DNA of 64,000 bases from Glandiceps talaboti. Lineage: Eukaryota > Hemichordata > Enteropneusta > Spengelidae. Position 1 is the first letter of the stretch. The number at the start of each line of letters is the position of its first letter. Below are positions 18,354 through 43,339 of the stretch, in pieces. The translations under genes and the position numbers were made by a program. The notes under the pieces were generated by a model. It saw only the letters and a list, made by a program, of their open reading frames with translations, was not told the origin of the DNA and searched no databases. The DNA is taken from the NCBI RefSeq assembly GCF_964340395.1, contig NC_135552.1:379001-443000 (forward strand). Reading direction: 5' to 3'.

Positions 18354-19232
18354 TGCAAAACAGGGTTTTGTTCAGAAGAGATAGCGGAGAAATTATCTGC
18401 AACTTCGTAGTTCATTACAAAATATCACTCGGTCAGTAATAACTGAATAGAACAGAGTGAATCGATTTTGTACGCGCCACGCAAAGGGAATTTCGTAAAT
18501 TCTTAGCATCACGTGAAACCCAGCGTCACATGCGTTGACCGTTGTGTGTGTTCTATTAATGGAATACGAAGTAAACATGTAAAAGGGGCGACTGCACAAC
18601 ATGCACAATGTCACTACGCGCTGTTTAGGAGGGAGGGGGTGTCTGGCGTTAATGCGATTGTTTCAATCTTCATTTTCACACTTCAAAAAAATTCAAAAAA
18701 TTTTCACGACTAAAAGGACTGTAAGTTCATCACACGGGTCCATTACGCATGTAATCATGCAGTTCTCCACACAAACGACGTAATCATAACGTAATCCTGA
18801 ATAATTAACGACCAAGCTGAGAATCACTATCTTTATCGGTAAATACTGGTAAGACGTAAGACAAAAAAGAAATAAAACAAGGGTTGAATTGGATTACCGA
18901 GAGTAACTGTGCTGTTTACCATACCCGGTTGAAAAATACTGAATGAGTTGAATACAGGTTTGTATACTGTGCGTTTATATAATTTATAAACTGTAAATGT
19001 ACTTGCATGCCCCGTGACTCGAGTATTCACACAGCTGTGTTGTACTCAACACTAAATGTTTTTTTTCCACGTTCCATAAGTTACCGTTCAAAGTTTGACT
19101 AATATTCCAAGACATTGTGCCATGTATTTGTCAACAAAAAACATTCCGAGCCAATAATTATATTGCAAACGCATGCTACTGAGCTACGTGTTGAGGACTG
19201 TTTACTGTGGCCTGTTCACGTTCTGATCAGGG
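18354..19232. other. 5' flank of the CFAP97 gene, no other gene
   Basis: Upstream of the CFAP97 start codon I see no further exon with support. There is no clear TATA box. Several open frames on both strands have no recognisable similarity. Confidence 0.45.
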
Positions 19233-19920
19233 GCATGAGGCAACAATTCTGGTGAAACCCGAAAATGATAATGATGTGACAGGTAACAAAGGCCCAAGTT
19301 AGCTATGAGTCACATTTACATACTTCTTTATTTATAGTATATTTTAATAAACTCATTATACACGTTTACACATATTTGTTATTTTGGGTATAAGAAATGG
19401 AATGATTAAAAATATTATATGTATGTATGTACGTGTACATTTTCTGGTCTTTTAAAAAAATGAAACACTTTTAATAATCGCAGAAAAAGTTTATATAAAT
19501 ATGGAAGTCTCCTAAAAAGAATAAAGAAAAAGAAAGTATATGGATAGACATGGTGTAAAATGGACGCTTAGTGCGCTCGCGACAGCTGACGCGCTGCACT
19601 GCTTGGTGTGCTCGAGCTCAAACGTATTGGGTAGGAAACGGCATCGAATAAACCAATCAGGACCCTTGAAATCGAACATGTGACCCATGAATTTTCTCTT
19701 GAAGCTGTGAGCTTGATACCGCCTGCTGCCCTCTTGTGGTGAGATATATATTTCGCATGCTGCAGTACATTGTAGAGTTTGCGGGACATTACAACAGATT
19801 GCCGAAACGGCATATTATATGAACTGAAGCTCCAAAACGTTGCGTCTTTTGCGAGGGAAATAAACAAAAACACAATTGATAACATCTTGGTTTTATCAAT
19901 ATTTGGTGTGAAGAGTTGCA
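19233..19920 (-). repeat. dispersed repeat R, copy without the 8.8-kb insertion (empty site)
   Basis: 19,233-19,536 is the inverse of 41,002-41,275, sharing GGCATGAGGCAACAATTCTG, TTAGCTATGAGTCACATTTA and TTTATATAAATATGGAAG. 19,537-19,920 is the inverse of 31,745-32,209, sharing GACAGCTGACGC, ATGTGACCCATGAATTTTC and CTTTTGCGAGGGA. In the copy at 31.7-41.3 kb the same two halves are separated by 8.8 kb, whereas here they touch at TATAT (19,537-19,541). This copy therefore shows the sequence without the insertion. It has its own ~40-bp deletion just after the junction. A Y-shaped G/T homopolymer block follows at 19,950-20,090. Confidence 0.85.
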
Positions 19921-31470: not shown

Positions 31471-32209
31471 GGAAGGGTAGGACACTCCGATCCCAGAGGC
31501 ACTCCGGTGTTCTTTTTCGTCGTAAGATTGAAACCACATCGCTCTCGTTTACACGGACACTTTCTGTTTCGGGCAAACTTACGCGTTTTTGTTTACGCAG
31601 TCAAATGATGTTGTTACGTTTTCTCTTTCATTCAAAGGTATATTTTGAAGAGACACAGATATGACGAGTAATGTTTAATGATTATTTTTGCGTAATTTTA
31701 TGAAAATAATATAGACCGGAATCGACTGTGTGTTCGAGCCTACCGTAACTATACTGCATCAAATATTGATTAAACCAAGATATTATCAATTGTGTTTTTA
31801 TTTATATCCCTCGCAAAAGACGCACCGTTTCGGAGCTTCCGTTCATATAATATGCTGTTTCGGCAATAGGCTGTTTTACTGTCCCGCAAACGCCACAATG
31901 TACTGAAACATGCGAAATATATACCTCACCACAAGAGGGCAACAGGTGGTATCGAGCTTCGAGCGAAAATTCATGGGTCACATGTTCGAATTGAAGCGTC
32001 CCGATTAGTTTATTCGATGCCTTGTCCTACCCCTCTGTATTACAAGTTTAAGCAAGGAATGCGTTTGAGCTCGAGCTCGAGCACAGCAAGCAGCGCGTCA
32101 CGCATCGAAGCGTCAGCTGTCGCGAACGAACTAAGCGTCGATTTTGCATGCACCATGATCATGATGATCATGTTCCATTAAACCATTACAGACAAAATCT
32201 ATCCATATA
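31459..32209 (+). repeat. repeat R/X, left half, split by the 8.8-kb transposon
   Basis: 31,459-31,735 is repeat X and 31,745-32,209 is the B half of repeat R, inverse to 19,537-19,920. It ends in ATATA (32,205-32,209), the left target duplication of the large element. The matching A half starts at 41,002. Confidence 0.85.
32205..32209. repeat. left target-site duplication (ATATA)
   Basis: The 5-bp direct repeat matches 40,997-41,001. The uninserted relative has it once, at 19,537-19,541 on the other strand. Confidence 0.85.
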
Positions 32210-32231
32210 CAGTCTACAAGATCGCCATATA
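32210..32231 (+). repeat. left terminal inverted repeat
   Basis: 22 bp, of which 18 pair with the right end at 40,975-40,996; GATCGCCATATA is fully conserved. Further in, ATGAATATT and AACCAATCA are also shared between the two ends at loosely similar spacing. Confidence 0.85.
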
Positions 32232-32564
32232 TAGTCATGCTATTTTGCATATATGAATATTTATGATCGAATCGTTCCTAGGGAGATGTCTTTAATTTAA
32301 CCAATCACAGCTGTAAAATAATATTCAGTGTTCTATGAAGCATGTAAATAACGTGATTATTGACATCACCATACAAAAACAATTGTAGAAATTACAAATA
32401 TTGAGAGAAAATTACAAAATGTACACAAAATATTCTCCTACATCCTATTGGTCAATTGACAAATGATTGACAGTTAACGCTGCCGATCGATGATTATCTG
32501 TCATGATAGTCACTGAGCTCGAGCTTACAATAGCAGACGACACTTTTAAAGATAAGGTTCAACA

Positions 32565-34853
32565 ATGCAAACGCATCAATCTTTGTCAAGCCTTGCAGCA
32601 ATTATTTTAGCCTTTTTATTTTTAATTAGCATTATTGTGATCGTTGTGTTTGTTGGCCATGGCCCACAGAAGAAATGTAAAAACCCTTTCCATGAAAGGT
32701 GGAATAGAGGTTCTGAGCGTGAGAAAACCGGGGTTGAAATAGCGAAATATGTACGGAAGGACTTTCGCAATGCCTTCGCTAGACTTGGAGTTCATAGGAC
32801 AGCTAGTATCTGCACCAACTGCCTTCGTATGGCTCCAATGCGACGGGAATTTACGCAGCACTTCAATAATGTTGCGGAGCGGAAAGTTCAGGTATGTACA
32901 AAAGAGGTTGTTTTTTATAACTCTGAGGGCGATGTATATAATGACCTCTCACGTTTGACCGATGACCTTGTGCTTTGTTGTGAACTGATAATATGTTGAT
33001 ACACTGGATCCCACTTGCAATTTGCAGTCTGTCTCTGTGTTGTAACATACATGTAGTCAGAAATTTTCTTTGTACTGACCGAGCCTCGTCTCGTGCGGGA
33101 TCCGGAGCAGTCCTGTTTGACGACCGTGGACGGGACACAACTCTGACAAATAACAAATGTAGTCCTGCTTGTGATAATTGTGAACACTGACAAGAAACAT
33201 TACAGACACTGTCAGAATTGAGTCCCGACTTATTCCGGTTGCAGGACTAACAAATTCAATGTCTCTAAACACGGAGCTGAGAAGGAAAGGGACAATGTCA
33301 GCATTGAATCCCGACTTTCAAGTCTGCAAGCAGGACGAGTTTCGATGCAGCTGAGCAAACTAAGTTTACTTCTATATTCGTGGGAGCTTTTTTTGTAATG
33401 ATGATTTGCTCGTGTAACAGTAAATCAAATATGTATAGTTCTGTAGACTTATGTTGACAGTCAGTGTATAGTTAGCATGTGTAAAAACTTTATTGATGAT
33501 CACTGTACATTTGTAGTTGTTTGACGACTCGTTTAATAATTGGATACGAGGGGTGACACACCTACGAGTGATATGTACTATTTTGTGTATTTCATTTGTG
33601 TGATATTTGGAATTGCTTTCTTCACAGGCTGATCGCAAACGAAAGGAGACCCATGAAGAATCTCCAGCTACATGTATAGATATCGACTATATTCATGATA
33701 TTACACAGTCACAGGTTAGTCATATGATATAATTGGCTATAAGTAAGGTCAGGCCGTTTACATTATATAAACAGCTAGAAATCCACATGTAGATTACAGG
33801 ACATGCCTGTAACAGACCTCCTGCACCTCCTAAAACAGGGTATGTGAAAAAAGTGATGTTATATAGGGTCTATAAATCTGGTAAGATTTCATAGCTGTAC
33901 TAATAGACATGTGACAGCTAGCATATTAGATGTAAAATTATGACTACTGTGATCTGTTTGAAAAATTTCATGTACAAATGCAGTTACATGGTCTGTACAT
34001 TTCTGTACATCTTCTCAGAGATGTTTTCACAGTATGAGTGATGTAACTGGTCTGTTGATATAAGTATGTATACTTATCAGTTTGTATTATCTAAGAATAT
34101 GTACCAAACGATATATTAGTGTTTTAATTATAAACAGTGAAATGTTGATAAAATAAGATCTGCTAATACACCTGTATACACAATCCATGTATACAGTTAT
34201 ATCAACACAGATACAGCAACATGTAGAAAAAACATTATACTCTAATAGAAAATGACCCATCCTTGATTTTTCAGTAGACTTTTGAATAACAATGACTATG
34301 TACATGTGTGTGGGAGTGCATAACACACCCAAAACGAATATTTAGATTTGAAATGAGTTACTTTTGTTTTAAAATACTAATACCCAACTAGCAGTAATTG
34401 TTGATTTCACTAATCCCATACTTCCAGTATCCAATTATTCATAGTGTGCATATATATTTCTTGATTCTCACTAAATTCCCAATTCATGGGTTGATTTTTG
34501 CTGTATGATTTATTTAGTGTCCAAGCAAAGGATGTTCATCTATCCCAGGTCATATTACTCGTACATCACTCCAAAACCAAGCTATAGCTACGGTAACCCC
34601 AATTGATAGTCACACAAAGGTAAGATGCTATTTGTGTTGCATATTATTTAATATGTTACTTTATTGGCAATGGTAAAAATTTTAAAATTATACGAAATTT
34701 ACATGATACAGTACATATTTGCTGAACATGTTCTCAACAGTATTATATGTTGTACTTATAATTGTAAAATTGAATAAATGAAATCTATGTAGTGTTTTTT
34801 AGCACAACTGAACTGAGGTTCAGTAGTGCTATAGGGATCGCCCGGCATCTGTC

Positions 34854-34895
<42 letters not shown>

Positions 34896-35377
34896 CAACT
34901 GAAACTGGATTATGATGATGGAAATTAGGTATGAAAATTTTGTTTTGGTTTCAACTTTAAAACTTCAAAAAATTATATATCTATCATTGCCCTGAACATG
35001 AAGTTGTGCGGCAACGCAATATTTGCGCTATTTTTAAGTACTACATTTATGATTGACGATGTACATTGTGTACTTCATTATTATGGATGGCTGATATAAT
35101 ATATGCATGTATTTGTAACATCATGATATTGACAAATTCAATGAATTTTTTTTTTTAAGTATAATGGTGTTGCAGATACAACTGTCGTATTTCCTGAAGC
35201 AGCAAGAGGTGATACACTTTGTCCTGAAACAAAGGCAAGTCACAGTTACTGCTGTATGTTGCATATTTTATTTTAACGAGTAAGCTCAGCTGGCAGGATC
35301 ACGCTTGTTCGTATTCAGGGGATGTGGGTTCGACTCCTACATCCCTATATGTCTCACTTGTCTCTCCTTAATTTTCA

Positions 35378-35408
<31 letters not shown>

Positions 35409-38400
35409 CATACATACATGTATAATCTTGAAGGACTGGTTTATGTAATTAGTTCCAATGTATACATGAGCGAAAGATTCACTGATATGAAAGCGATTAC
35501 ATGACATAAAAATGACATGAATATACCAATTTTCCATCACTTGAACATGTAACCTGTAACACATGTAACATGTAGCACATAGTCAGTAGACCGATTCAAT
35601 AACATCATACATTTTGGTGTACACAGTACTACAGGCAATGATACCAAGCTATATTGTATGTTCCATTCATGTCTGCCATGTAGGTAGTTGTGACATAGTA
35701 ATTAAGAGTCATAAAATGAAATGAAAGTATGCAACTTCTAGAGATTTAACAGTTTTGTATTTTACACTTATTTCAGATACCAGAATATGCTAACATGTAC
35801 AACCTTGATGTTGTAGGCGAATACCAGCAACTAATTAGTGAGCTGAAAGATCAGGTAAAGTCCCTAATACTGGATGTAGATGAGTTAAGTGAAGAAGTGA
35901 CTACTCTTAGAAATGAAAATAAGGACCTGTTAGAAGATAAAAATAAACTAGAAGATGACAAGGATGAATTACAAAAGAAATTAGACAATATGTATGAAAC
36001 ACAAAAACAGAGGATTGAGGCAGTCAAACAAATAGGTTTCATAGAAAATAAGAATGTCTATGAAGAAACAACAAAACTGATCAGGGATAAAGATAGAAGG
36101 AGCTTAGATAATCTAATAGATGTCAATTTAGTCAGTCACATAAATTCTAGAAATCCTGTTGTTGTCGCATTTATAAATGCAATAACAGCTAAACAGACAG
36201 AAAGTGGGATTGGTTTAATAGGGAATAGTGAATCAGTTAGAACTAAGACCAGTGCCATGAGGTTGCAAGCCATTGATTGTATATATGCAAGTAGAAATTT
36301 AAATTATATTAGTGACCTTATGTTTAGAGTTCAGGCTGTCTTATACTCTCTGACACAGAGTGAAATGGCTTGCAATCTCATCAGCCATTGTACACCAGCT
36401 GGTTCATATGACACTGTGCAAAATTGGCTGAAAGCTATGAAAGATTCTTGTAAACCAGCCCCACATGGTCTCATTGAATATGCTTTTGATAATGAACAAA
36501 GACTACTGCGTACATGGCTTAGCCGAGATAGTAACAAACAAAAGTCTGAGGTCCTTACAACTATAATAGTAAATCAGTTGAGTGAGAAGTGTGATTTTCA
36601 GGAGAAAGCCACGTTTAAACCATGTAACTGGCCGAAGCCAACATCAGTAAAAACAATGGAGGCTTTGACACCTGAACTTGAAATGTTAGTCCATACTGAA
36701 CAGATACAGTTTATTTCAGAACAACTCACTAAGATAATGAATGAATCAACTGATGTTGTGGGAAACAAAGTAGAAAGTAATGCCACTGACATCTGTAGTG
36801 TATGTAATCACAGCCATCCAAAGGTTGAAAATAGAATTAAATGTGTAAATTGTGGTAACTTTGGTTTGAAAAGAAAGAGTAAAAAAGGTGTGGATACAAA
36901 GACATACAGGACAAAAAGCACTTGTGATGATAATACAATTGTATTTCATGAGTATACTGGCCACACAGTGACTAATGAGGGAGGTACCCAACGGGTAGTA
37001 ATGAAATATGAAGGAAAATCCCCAGACACTGAAAATGTACTTAACCAAGCTAGGAAGGCCAATATTAGTCTTGTAGACCCTATATTTGTAAACCCATCTT
37101 CTCTGGAAGCTATTGTAATAATTCTTAGGGCAATAGGGAAACATGCAGGGATTCATAAATACTGCAACGGTAAAGGAAAGAGGGAATGGACCATTGTAAG
37201 ATGTGATGGCTTACCCCAGCACATCATAAGAACAGCTATTCATAAGTATGGGGATGAGTTTGATTGGGTGGTTCTTCGCACTGGTCCAGGTCATGAAGAA
37301 ATGAATATGATAAGATCTTTTGCAGAAATGTATTGGGAAATTATCTATTCAGAGTTTGGGAAGACACAGGGTTTTGTGACTGAGAAGGCTCAGCTTTTCT
37401 TTAAGAGATGTGGGGACCACCATCAAAGTTTTGATAATTTCTGTAAATTCCATGAAGCTATCTATCAAGAGTTACTTTGGCCATATACGTGTGAGTCTCA
37501 AGTTCCATCACCTTATGACTTTTTGGAATGGATAAGGAACAAAAGTAGTGATGAAACGATACAGTTTGTTTGGACAACAATGCTGCAACATTGCCTTGGA
37601 ATTCATTTGTTCAGGAAGGGGGTCCGAAACAATGATACTAAACTTTTCAGAGCAGGGAGACAATTATTTTCTCCAGTTTGGTTTGGACGTTGTCACCCAA
37701 AATACCAGGAAATAGAGTCATGGGATGAGTATGATAGATTGTGTTGGCCAGAGGCCCTAAGGGAGGTATTAGAACAACATGAATCTGTTTCTAGATCTGG
37801 AAAGCCAAGTAAACACCAGGGTTTGGACTTTGTCCTTGAAGAATATAATAAATCAATCAAATCATGGATAGTGGGGACTCCTGACTATACTAAGTGGGAA
37901 AGGGTCATTCACAACCATGACAGTCTTGTATGTCTCCGTAACACCACATTGATGGCACTAGGAATGAGAGTTGATAATTCATTTGATCGCAATCTTCCTC
38001 CATATGAAAACGATCTTGTTAACTTCAAAGTGGTGTTAAGGTCCAAAGCATATCTTACACCTAACCCAGGTAGAACAATTACCAATATTCATGGGGAGGA
38101 TCTTGACATTGGTTTGCTAGATTTTAATAGCGAGGCAGGTATGAGAAGAATGAGATTTGTCACTGAGTATCTATGGGCCTCTAGGTTCCCTCAGAGAAGA
38201 GAACACGTCCCTGTAATTTTTGTTACTAAAGAAGAAAGGGCAAAATATAACAAACTAGAATCTAAATCTGTGGCACAATTAAAGTGTGAAATACAATCCT
38301 GCTTGTCAGTGATGTCTCCAGAAAGAAGAATAGAGTGGGATAGTAAAGTAACTAGACTGAGTAAAAGTAGGGTTGTTAAATCAACATGGTTAAAACTTGT

Positions 38401-38482
38401 CACAGAAATCCAGGATGCAATAATTAATGAAGTGGGGGAAAGTGATGGTAATGTAGATGGTATTTCTGAGGATGACAAGTGA
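32565..38482 (+). CDS. putative transposase of the 8.8-kb element, five exons, ~1,098 aa
   Basis: The exons are 32,565-32,891, 33,628-33,714, 34,518-34,619, 35,160-35,234 and 35,777-38,482. Every junction is phase 0 and every exon is open. The introns are GT-AG except the fourth, which uses a GC donor (AAG/GCAAGT). Exon 1 encodes a hydrophobic segment, then 'CKNPFHERW' and 'CTNC', a likely zinc-binding module. The large exon begins with a coiled coil (about residues 212-283), then has a CxxC/CxxC pair (537/540 and 553/556). The following domain contains 'WTIVRCDG' (D674), 'GPGHEEMNM', 'GDHHQSF', and 'VLEEYNKSIKSW' (E885/E886). Spaced acids of this kind suggest an RNase H-fold DDE/D nuclease, but that is inference. 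I recall similar uncharacterised multicopy proteins from invertebrate genomes. The hydrophobic start may be an artefact: the T-rich stretch before CCCACAG (32,669) could be an intron end, with the exon starting in phase 0 at 32,670 and the true first exon unseen. A possible AATAAA lies at 39,266-39,271. Confidence 0.8.
34797..35045 (+). repeat. short copy of the hairpin-start repeat (intron 3)
   Basis: The same start as the repeat at 2,067 (AGCACAACTGAACTG then GGTTCAGTAGTGCTATAGG) and the same GCGCTATTTTTAAGTA end, with a (GT)n tract at 34,859-34,892. It sits in the third intron of the transposase candidate gene, so it inserted later or travels with the element. Confidence 0.65.
35277..35420 (+). 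repeat. tRNA-like, SINE-like sequence with (CATA)n tail
   Basis: TAAGCTCAGCTGGCAGGATC resembles an A box. GTGGGTTCGACTCCTAC forms a T-arm with a 5-bp stem and a perfect TTCGACT loop. No acceptor stem pairs, so it is not an intact tRNA gene. A (CATA)n microsatellite follows at 35,379-35,419. This is the head-and-tail form of a tRNA-derived SINE remnant, located in intron 4. Confidence 0.45.
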
Positions 38483-39172
38483 GACAAATATTTGTTAAAG
38501 TGAAGATTAAAATTATCCAGTGAAATGTAACTATTTTGATGCTACAATGTGAAGTGTATCTTTTCATGATTACAAATATATATGTATAGACTCTGATAGT
38601 TTAAAAGATTAATGTAGAAAAATTAAATTTAGATTACATTAGAGTTGGTTTCTATAATATTTTATGCTAGATGTAAGTTTCACTGTTTATCTCAGCAATA
38701 ACATTTTTGCATTGTCTTTTTCAGGTATGGTGTTTGGGGTTCCACCTTTCATATACGAATCATAAATCTAAACATGGCTGATTTGGAGTAATTAATTCAT
38801 AGAAATAATGAACTGTCAAGTTGCTCTCTACATCTTTATACAAATATACCAAAGTCAAAACCAGACAAATGTCACTGTAGTACAAATTAACACATGACAC
38901 TGTGTTGAATAATTTTGTTGTTGGTGTAGGTCTGAAATACCATCATTATTAAAATAATTGGATTGTTTTTAACATTTTCTGTCCATTTTATATTTGTAGA
39001 CAACAAATAAGCATGAGGGCAAATTGACATTTCATGTAAAATTTCAAATGGAAATTGTCCAGTTATTAATGGTAATGGTGCATACATGTTTTTATATATC
39101 CAACTGATTCTGGTAGTACCTTACAGCACTCCTACTGAAGGCTTACATACATGTTCATACTATGCATTGTAT

Positions 39173-39197
39173 GTGTGTATGTATGTATGTATGTATG

Positions 39198-39227
<30 letters not shown>
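39173..39227 (+). repeat. (GTAT)n microsatellite
   Basis: About 13 copies of GTAT. Confidence 0.95.
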
Positions 39228-39228
<1 letters not shown>

Positions 39229-40362
39229 TACTTGTAAATGTTTCAATTCAGAAGTTTTATTTGAAAATAAAATTCATTGTACATCATAATTCATCGTCTG
39301 TCATTTTCATTCCCTTATAGATACATGCTTGCTTAGACATAATTTGATTGCAAGTTTGACTAGAAATAACGCCCAATTGTCCATCTTACCATCCCTTACC
39401 ACTCAACCATCTACCCATCAATACCTATTTAGCCCAAACTACATTCCCCAAAATAGTAAATAATGACAAACCAGTAGTTAATTGTGACAACTGTGTATAT
39501 AAACAGTTGAAGGTCGTAACACTACAAACAAGGAGTATGTGTAAAAAGAAATTAAGACATCAATTACAGTGTCCTTGCTAGTATTTCTAGTTTTCTCAGA
39601 TCAGAGATAAAATATTGAATTAATGAAATAAGTGACACAAGTAATATATTGTGCAAGTGACATCAAAAAAGACAATTTATTGTTTGTCTTTTTGATATCA
39701 TGTTAGAAAGGTGATGATGATCCCATCACACCAAAAAAATGAGAAATAAAGTAGTCTGTGACAAAAGTTATATCAATCAACATAATAGGGGTATCAAAAG
39801 TACAATGACATGTTTTGCAAATTAAGTATATTGCCAAGTAGTGCTTCGGATTTGTTTTAGAAACAGCTGTAAGTTGAAAGACCAAAGCATATCTCTTGTT
39901 AAATTAGAAATCATCATTAACACACCCACCTTAATTTTACACACATAACCAACCATTGAATCATAGAAATACATCACATGACCAAGGTTTGCCTGAAGTC
40001 AAAAACATGTACGTAATGGTCTGTCAAACAAGTGATGATTCCCCCCCCCCCCCTCCACGCCAAAACCAACGACATCAGCAAACACGAACTAGCTACAGTA
40101 TAGTCTCTGTATGTCACAACGATAACGTAATACTATACACATATGTGTTGTATCCTAATCAGCGTTTACTCAATAGCACAATGGTGACGGTAATCTGTGT
40201 AGTTTACCTACCTGTGATGTATTAAAATCAAAATTCAAACTTCGAACTCTACACTAAGTTAACATTTTGTGAATGTGCACAGAACAGCTTTCATAACACC
40301 ATGAAACCATGTAATTCACATTTCTACACACACACACACACATCACGCATTGATTACGGTAG

Positions 40363-40373
40363 TTCTCTTTTTG
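40363..40373 (-). promoter_or_regulatory. histone-downstream-element-like purine tract
   Basis: On the minus strand CAAAAAGAGAA lies about 10 nt after the stem-loop. It contains AAAGAG, the core that pairs with U7 snRNA in metazoan histone pre-mRNA 3' processing. Spacing and composition fit. Confidence 0.7.
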
Positions 40374-40383
40374 GAGGGTGTGT

Positions 40384-40399
40384 GGCCCTGAAAAGGGCC
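40384..40399 (-). terminator. histone-type 3' stem-loop after the HIRAN gene
   Basis: The minus strand reads GGCCCTTTTCAGGGCC, a 6-bp stem with a TTTC loop, flanked by AAAAC upstream and ACACA downstream. This matches the replication-dependent histone mRNA 3' consensus at every conserved position I know. It begins 20 nt after the HIRAN stop codon, the short 3' UTR typical of histone mRNAs. Confidence 0.88.
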
Positions 40400-40419
40400 G
40401 TTTTGATTTGGTTTGGTGT

Positions 40420-40812
40420 CTAGGGGAACAAGACAGGAAAACCCTGGTTCAGGACTATGTCCTTTGCCCGAGTGACGTCCTCTGTCTTCACCATGAAGCC
40501 GGCCGTACACATCTGAACTTTACCATACCGCCGAGAATGGAAGAAACAACGGCCCTTTGGCTTCAAATAATACCGTCCATTTGAAGCTAGACGTGCATCA
40601 ATCACTTTTGATAGTAACTGAGCAGCGTCTCTCTTCAAATGGCCGAGTACTTTTGGATGTTGTTCCATTCCATTCTCGACGATACCGCAAGCATTCGGAT
40701 CATGCACGTTATTCAATTCATGGATGATGTTGTATCCTCTCCCTGGCGTTAGTTCCCCCGAATAATGGTGCATTCCCACAGCAATTACGTTTCTGATGAT
40801 GACTTTCGGCAT
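40420..40812 (-). CDS. stand-alone HIRAN-domain protein, 130 aa, intronless
   Basis: The start is the ATG at 40,812; upstream codons in frame have no earlier ATG. The protein begins 'MPKVIIRNVIAVGMHHYSGE', followed by 'LNNVHDPNACGIV' and 'VLGHLKRDAAQLLSKVID'. This is the order of the HIRAN fold: a first strand with G-x-x-x-Y, the N-x-x-D-x-x-A loop, and the VG-L---A helix. HIRAN domains, as in HLTF, bind DNA 3' ends and usually come fused to helicases. Here the domain fills the protein and is followed only by about 45 basic and aromatic residues. The gene lies 184 bp inside the right end of the 8.8-kb transposon and converges with the transposase candidate. It has histone-like signals on both sides. 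I infer an accessory DNA-end-binding protein made in S phase. Confidence 0.85.
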   Translation of the reverse strand: MPKVIIRNVIAVGMHHYSGELTPGRGYNIIHELNNVHDPNACGIVENGMEQHPKVLGHLKRDAAQLLSKVIDARLASNGRYYLKPKGRCFFHSRRYGKVQMCTAGFMVKTEDVTRAKDIVLNQGFPVLFP

Positions 40813-40883
40813 CGTGATTAAAACTTTGTTGTGGTTTTGCTCTGGTTCAGCAGACGATAAGAAAAACAAAAGTAAGCGCGCCT

Positions 40884-40891
40884 ATTTGCAT
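40884..40891 (-). promoter_or_regulatory. octamer motif upstream of the HIRAN gene
   Basis: On the minus strand an exact ATGCAAAT lies 72 nt before the ATG, followed by a GGCGCGC word. The octamer is the hallmark of histone H2B promoters (bound by POU factors). Confidence 0.6.
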
Positions 40892-40921
40892 AACCTATGA
40901 CCCAAACTTTCTGTGACGCTG

Positions 40922-40926
40922 ATTGG
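40922..40926 (-). promoter_or_regulatory. CCAAT box upstream of the HIRAN gene
   Basis: AACCAATCAGCG on the minus strand lies about 110 nt before the ATG. An AACCAATCA also occurs inside the left end of the element (near 32,300), upstream of the other gene. Confidence 0.5.
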
Positions 40927-40974
40927 TTGAAATGAAGAGTAGAACGTACTACTTAATATTCATGACTAATTCCT

Positions 40975-40996
40975 TATATGGCGATCGACTTGACTG
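40975..40996 (-). repeat. right terminal inverted repeat
   Basis: The inverse partner of 32,210-32,231, with 18 of 22 positions matching. Confidence 0.85.
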
Positions 40997-41001
40997 ATAT
41001 A
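40997..41001. repeat. right target-site duplication (ATATA)
   Basis: The 5-bp direct repeat of 32,205-32,209. Confidence 0.85.
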
Positions 41002-42964: not shown

Positions 42965-43231
42965 TTTAAACCAAGATATTATCAATTGTGTTTTTGTTTA
43001 TATCCCTCGCAAAAGACGCGCCGTTTCAGAGCTTCAGTTCATATATTATGCTGTTTCGGCAATCTGTTTTACTGTCCCGCAAACGCCACAATGTATTTCA
43101 ACATGCGAAATATATATCTCACCACAAGAGGGCAGCTGGTATCAAGCTTCGAGAGAAAATTCATGGGTCACATGTTCGATTTGAAGCGTCCTGATTGGTT
43201 TATTCGATGCCATGTCCTACCCCTCTGTATT
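42965..43231 (+). repeat. repeat R, B half, third copy
   Basis: Matches 31,775-32,040 closely: ACCAAGATATTATCAATTGT, CCTCGCAAAAGACGC, GTCCCGCAAACGCCACAATG and ACCCCTCTGTATTACAAGTT. It ends abruptly at CAAGTTTAA. Confidence 0.85.
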
Positions 43232-43339
43232 ACAAGTTTAATTTATTTTCACAAGGGAAGTCATGTTTACAATAAAATGTTCTTTGTGACTGAATGCTGT
43301 TTGTATTGCATATTACACACACATATATGCACACGCAGA

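Follow-up and report, generated by a model that had tools for sequence, protein, structure and literature searches.

A two-gene DNA transposon of Glandiceps talaboti with CAGTC ends, 5-bp target duplications, a HIRAN partner gene and a transposase remotely related to DUF6589

The window analyzed here, a stretch of 64,000 nucleotides that forms part of contig C5 of Glandiceps talaboti, holds a DNA transposon with two convergent genes, one for a large putative transposase and one for a HIRAN protein, and at some distance a relative of the surrounding host repeat that lacks the insertion. The features are given below with window coordinates and, where one applies, the strand.

32210..40996: whole transposon, 8,787 bp
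32205..32209: target duplication ATATA, left copy, 5 bp
40997..41001: target duplication ATATA, right copy, 5 bp
32210..32231, plus strand: left terminal inverted repeat, CAGTCTACAAGATCGCCATATA, first base identical in 13 of 13 copies
40975..40996, minus strand: right terminal inverted repeat, read inwards, CAGTCAAGTCGATCGCCATATA
32565..32891, plus strand: predicted transposase exon 1, hydrophobic segment and then a CxxPxH ... CxxC zinc-like motif
33628..33714, plus strand: predicted transposase exon 2
34518..34619, plus strand: predicted transposase exon 3
35160..35234, plus strand: predicted transposase exon 4, just upstream of a GC-AG intron
35777..38482, plus strand: predicted transposase exon 5, with a coiled coil and a catalytic core of DUF6589 type
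36488..36490, plus strand: codon of D238 (exon-5 numbering) in the FDNEQ motif, proposed first catalytic Asp
37205..37207, plus strand: codon of D477 in the CDGLP motif, proposed second catalytic Asp
37838..37840, plus strand: codon of E688 in the LDxxLEExNK motif, proposed catalytic Glu
40420..40812, minus strand: HIRAN protein gene, 130 aa, PF08797 E 1e-7, convergent with the transposase gene
19231..19908, minus strand: empty-site relative, a related host repeat without insertion and with a single ATATA (alignment of the joined flanks)

The element opens with CAGTC at 32210 and closes with GACTG at 40996, and ATATA stands on either side, so that the borders, ends and duplication put forward in an earlier note on this DNA proved exact to the base. 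A recount by hand gave the same 18 matching bases of 22 for the inverted tips, both of which contain GATCGCCATATA. When the flanks are joined with one ATATA, they align through the junction to positions 19908-19231 (75% identity, E 3e-170, with 138 gap positions of 770), and the host-repeat relative with a single ATATA, also claimed before, is thereby recovered. More partial copies of this host repeat, 89-92% identical, lie at window positions 42966-43241, 30200-29961, and 31500-31712. The large protein had been put at about 1,098 residues, and the five predicted exons, with splice sites taken from the sequence, together give 1,098 aa; the convergent HIRAN gene of the same note is likewise present.

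The genome searched comprises 590 Mb in 47 contigs, and searches of it with the two ends returned at least 28 match rows for the left end and at least 19 for the right. Borders first drawn from a single copy hold for all 13 copies with both ends in the fetched stretch (the window element and 12 others): each starts and ends at identical bases and carries an exact 5-bp duplication, and none carries one of 6 bp. This count leaves out L017, L022, L023, L027, and L028, each with one end only in the fetched stretch, and diverged right-end matches on C1, C2, and C10. The duplications of the 13 copies are A+T-rich 5-mers (ATATA and ATAAT twice each and nine others once each), and a wider set of 22, made up of 13 from the window family, 6 from mini-copies, and 3 from two other families described below, has 81% A+T compared with 63% in the flanks used as background. 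The mini-copies, eight in the genome, are 87-88 bp long and built of the two ends; the 5-bp duplication is exact in six of them and one base off in L026 and in L036. Inverted ends, a target duplication of fixed length, and nonautonomous derivatives are thus all present as traits of cut-and-paste transposition, and the window element is a genuine DNA transposon of the cut-and-paste kind that was active in the recent past.

Two subgroups can be distinguished among the copies. Within the first (the window element and L009-L013), aligned pieces are 98.1-99.9% identical and differ nearly always by gaps, with 1-12 mismatches per aligned piece of 573-6946 bp. In the second (L014-L016 and L018-L021), six copies have lost about 535 bp of the transposase gene in common and L016 has a larger loss, and D238 is gone from all seven. 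As the six copies with the common loss occupy different duplications, they moved after the loss, with transposase supplied in trans. L014 is a mosaic, with a left part of the second subgroup and a right part, including the HIRAN gene, of the first. All five transposase exons are free of indels in the window element and L012; L009 has a 4-bp deletion in exon 3, exon 5 alone is open at full length in 4 of 13 copies, and exon 1 is without a stop in all 13. Exon 4 is present in 11 of 13 copies, and all of these have the GC donor at 35235-35236. The copies are nearly identical, with the whole gene indel-free in 1 of the 12 others, which makes the element testable in cells.

The homologues found for the predicted transposase are few, at least 10, and are 25-41% identical; they come from a sea cucumber, Diversispora and Gigaspora fungi, a clam, and four others. 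D238-N239 and C476-D477-G478 are invariant in an alignment of eight sequences, and the motifs FDNxQ, CDGLP, and HxEMN recur, where the rows cover them, in the three families of this genome and in the fungal, sea cucumber, and clam homologues. A structure prediction of residues 215-735 (model 2, pLDDT 74.6, pTM 0.72; a first model was poorer, with pLDDT 56.6) shows D238 and D477 each preceded by strands and E688 on a late helix that follows an all-helical stretch, an order that can be read as an RNase-H-like core followed by helices. The order of elements and the conserved D, D, and E fit an RNase-H-fold core, and the fold matches are without significance: a structure search of PDB and BFVD gave no match at E <= 0.001, and the highest TM-score among the 50 matches listed belongs to a P-element transposase (0.22, E 2.7). 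Like P-element and hAT transposases, model 2 is helical between the second Asp and the putative Glu; those transposases make 8-bp duplications, in contrast to the 5 bp of the window element. A rival third acid is E508 of HxEMN, conserved across the clade wherever a row covers the position and at first favored as the catalytic Glu by helix order; it was set aside, as two classical DUF6589 proteins, L037 and L040, lack E508 and have E688 in common with the clade.

Sequence searches with the large protein gave no other transposase superfamily at its Pfam cut-off in the stretches scanned. A MULE match in the coiled-coil region reached E 0.13 and 13.2 bits against a cut-off of 27.6, and a match to a transposase zinc-ribbon in L029 reached E 0.82. 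A search of PDB sequences with the clade profile returned nine matches, none below E 0.36 and nearly all in a zinc-ribbon stretch, and a scan of viral contigs found no relative. The profile and structure searches of the large protein to which the earlier note had pointed thus yield a relation to DUF6589 by profile and no significant structure match in PDB or BFVD.

The genome contains two sister families. Transposase paralogues were located by searching with the window transposase (50 of 70 candidates were scored), and a search with the HIRAN protein found paralogues adjoining two of them in convergent orientation. The second family is represented by C4:6262728-6273939 (L029+L031), an element of 11,212 bp with CAGTC tips and the duplication ATGCC, for which one end was chosen by its CAGTC tip and the duplication was then found at the best-matching partner. 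Its tips match in 26 of 26 bases and lie inside an inverted repeat that aligns over 442 columns at 92.5% identity, its transposase is 36% identical to that of the window, and its convergent HIRAN gene is matched at E 1.1e-7. This element has a long inverted repeat of about 440 bp in place of short ends. In the four larger aligned pieces, L039 on C1 and the C4 element have 88-92% identity; either the ends of L039 fall beyond the fetched stretch or the end search missed them. The third family is represented by L030 on C6, 6,138 bp long, with tips matching in 21 of 25 bases and the duplication TATAA, which is no independent evidence as the end search required a 5-bp repeat. For comparison, the next-best pair in L030 matches in 13 of 25 bases, and chance pairs in L029 reach up to 15 of 25. 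L030 has an open exon of 964 residues, 45% identical to the window transposase, and at the same convergent position a HIRAN-like open reading frame that scores E 7.7e-4 and 19.7 bits against a cut-off of 24.7 and is absent from the matches of the genome search with the HIRAN protein. A second copy of this family, L042, has the same tips and the duplication AGTAT, identical in 5 of 5 bases in a search that allowed one mismatch. The end search gave no convincing pair in L041, and for the older relatives L043 (right end), L044, and L045, the second end was not found. The three families have in common their CAGTC tips, duplications of 5 bp, and a HIRAN gene convergent with the transposase gene, with the HIRAN match weak in L030, and the earlier description of a two-gene cut-and-paste transposon with these ends and this duplication is in this way extended from one element to three families.

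The window transposase is, as judged from sequence profiles, a divergent and remote relative of DUF6589 (PF20231, whose further accession we take to be IPR046496). The gathering cut-off of this Pfam family is 27 bits; the window protein remains below it at 25.0 bits, as do L029 (one exon piece, 19.1), P0001 (22.8), P0004 (23.2), and P0009 (26.6), whereas L030 (36.0) and P0005 (32.6) exceed it, and the Pfam scan lists no DUF6589 match for P0002, P0003, P0006, P0007, P0008, and P0010. The earlier expectation that the large protein would match no named superfamily is contradicted in part, by the Pfam family DUF6589. In a profile-profile comparison with hhalign, the clade (alignment A4, 10 sequences) and two classical DUF6589 proteins align over 260 columns with probability 94.3 and E 1e-7, with CDG placed over GDG (L037, L040) and LDxxLEE-NK over LDxxHEMxINK. 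The clade and the classical proteins share the Asp residues of DN and DG, a His that follows the fifth strand, and the LDxxLEExNK Glu, the first Asp of the classical proteins (VDN in L037 and L040) being matched by motif, as the alignment did not place it. A third classical protein, L038, has D at the position of E688, in a row whose alignment is unreliable.

Pfam lists DUF6589 as of unknown function, and a full-text search of a limited literature set found no paper on it. Classical DUF6589 matches number 20 in the same genome, 18 of them above the cut-off, and one lies within an element of 9,142 bp at C7:8358295-8367436 (L046+L037). The tips of this element, CAGTCGGATCGCTAGCCTGCGG and CAGTCAGATAGTTAGCCTGCAG, begin with CAGTC, are alike in 18 of 22 bases by hand count and 19 of 30 by script, and are flanked by a 3-bp duplication, TGT, in one copy, whose left end was chosen by a score that counted the duplication in its favor. 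A single open frame of 2,240 aa (L037:557-7279) carries DUF6589, a CXC domain, and a weak ubiquitin-like match in Pfam, and motifs that we take to be XPG-like and OTU-like; its nuclease part has no PDB match and no match to XPG or another nuclease in Pfam. Right ends were compared in 14 copies (L037 and 13 others): 12 agree at all 22 bases, and 2 have diverged. Left ends were sought at the expected distance for 10 copies with this type of right end and found for none, so that those copies probably differ in length and the 3-bp duplication rests on one copy; end searches confined to L037, L038, L039, and L040 yielded no convincing pair. The C7 element resembles the window element in its CAGTC tips, its DUF6589 core, and the matching DN, DG, and LD..E..NK motifs, and differs from it in the 3-bp duplication of one copy, the single 2,240-aa frame, and the lack of a HIRAN match there. 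DUF6589 elements with mapped ends and duplications suggest a function for the family, namely that of a transposase. On the basis of the CAGTC tips, the one-copy 3-bp duplication, and the motifs presumed to be XPG-like, DUF6589 may be the transposase of Academ elements.

For a placement beside Academ, PMC10045372 gives duplications of 3-4 bp for AcademX and 9-10 bp for AcademH and states that their length seems related to the encoded nuclease and helicase, respectively. By these traits, the C7 element agrees with AcademX. In contrast to AcademX, with its 3-4 bp and nuclease, and to AcademH, with its 9-10 bp and helicase, the window element has 5-bp duplications in all 13 copies and a HIRAN gene; neither helicase nor nuclease is matched in Pfam in the three stretches scanned (exon 5, the HIRAN gene, and the exon-1 frame). 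As the C7 element fits AcademX and the window element neither sublineage, the best reading is a third Academ-like lineage, marked by a HIRAN partner and duplications of 5 bp, placed beside AcademX and AcademH and set apart from them by what is described of both; the transposase superfamily is probably the same in all. The element is thus unusual, yet related to known families. The earlier note had held that it fits no superfamily; in the strong sense, this gives way to the remote kinship with DUF6589 and the classical DUF6589 element with the same CAGTC tips, and what stands is that, by the descriptions at hand, it fits neither AcademX nor AcademH. We consider it probable that the window element belongs to an autonomous, recently active cut-and-paste lineage with a divergent DUF6589-type transposase, of a family also found in an AcademX-like element. 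Our proposal that it forms a third Academ/DUF6589 branch, to be named separately and with a helper that tracks the duplication (nuclease with 3-4, helicase with 9-10, and HIRAN with 5 bp), is more tentative.

Other placements have to be weighed against this third lineage. Transib and ProtoRAG make 5-bp duplications, and a Transib/RAG-type element could on that likeness be considered; with other ends (CAGTC in the window), homology to DUF6589, and no RAG1 or Transib Pfam model at E <= 1 in the stretches scanned, such an origin is scarcely credible. An unnamed superfamily, the possibility raised in the earlier note, that shares only a remote ancestor with DUF6589 and Academ elements would accommodate a duplication length (5 bp) and a helper (HIRAN) of its own in three families, motifs of its own in families and homologues, and the lack of any other transposase superfamily at the Pfam cut-off. 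It is unlikely in view of the profile-profile E of 1e-7 to classical DUF6589, the sister protein L030 above the DUF6589 cut-off, and the classical element with the same CAGTC tips, and a Repbase rule that admits exceptions, as given in PMC4455052, is also against it: PSI-BLAST searches should not converge for transposases from different superfamilies. The DUF6589 kinship and CAGTC tips would, conversely, agree with a standard AcademX or AcademH element or with a family already in Repbase under Academ, but we regard this as quite improbable, given 5 bp in 13 of 13 copies against the 3-4 and 9-10 bp stated in PMC10045372, a HIRAN gene instead of the helicase or nuclease, and no open frame longer than 154 aa inside the element besides exon 5.

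The HIRAN gene itself could be a passenger, captured once and dispensable for transposition. Comparison of the copies shows no constraint (0-5 nucleotide differences; in L015, dN 0.010 and dS 0.011), which would suit a passenger and amounts to too few changes to judge selection. We find this reading doubtful, however, as the gene is convergent to the transposase gene in the window family and in both sister families, despite transposase identities to the window of 36% and 45% (with a weak HIRAN match in L030), and as its frame is open in 13 of 13 copies, including the seven that lack D238 and L010, which has lost exons 4 and 5, compared with 2 of 13 for an indel-free transposase gene. The presence of HIRAN in three families, weak as the match in L030 is, supports a function, and HIRAN is most likely a regular second component of the element, which would make this a transposon with a HIRAN protein as recurrent partner. 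The HIRAN domain of HLTF binds 3'-OH single-stranded ends. The small protein of the window element is also a HIRAN protein by Pfam, is matched weakly to the HLTF HIRAN sequence in PDB (E 0.034), and differs from HLTF in being a free-standing 130-aa protein without a helicase. HIRAN paralogues about 50% identical lie at C8:27479651, C1:11173812, and C13:455734, with no transposase match nearby.

It can be proposed that the large protein is an RNase-H-fold DDE transposase with a putative triad of D238, D477, and, after a helical insertion, E688, which would recognize and pair the inverted ends beginning with CAGTC and then excise the element, and that the 3' ends would be joined to A+T-rich target DNA across a 5-bp stagger. 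The HIRAN protein would most likely bind exposed DNA ends or aid their processing or repair; once the element is cut, it could hold or process the ends or bring in repair factors. A causal link between helper and stagger would imply that HIRAN works directly on the DNA ends that are cut or joined. These elements offer a natural comparison for the idea, published in PMC10045372, that links the Academ helper enzyme to duplication length.

Two smaller observations concern the transposase itself. Exon 1 of the window element (32565-32891) and that of L030 (L030:1078-1608) both encode, as judged by eye, a strongly hydrophobic, membrane-helix-like segment before the zinc-like motif, which is odd for a nuclear enzyme, and the motif ends in both with CxxC..AP..REFTQH. 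In the homologue P0006, a SAP domain (E 6.7e-9) is inserted directly after the second Asp motif.
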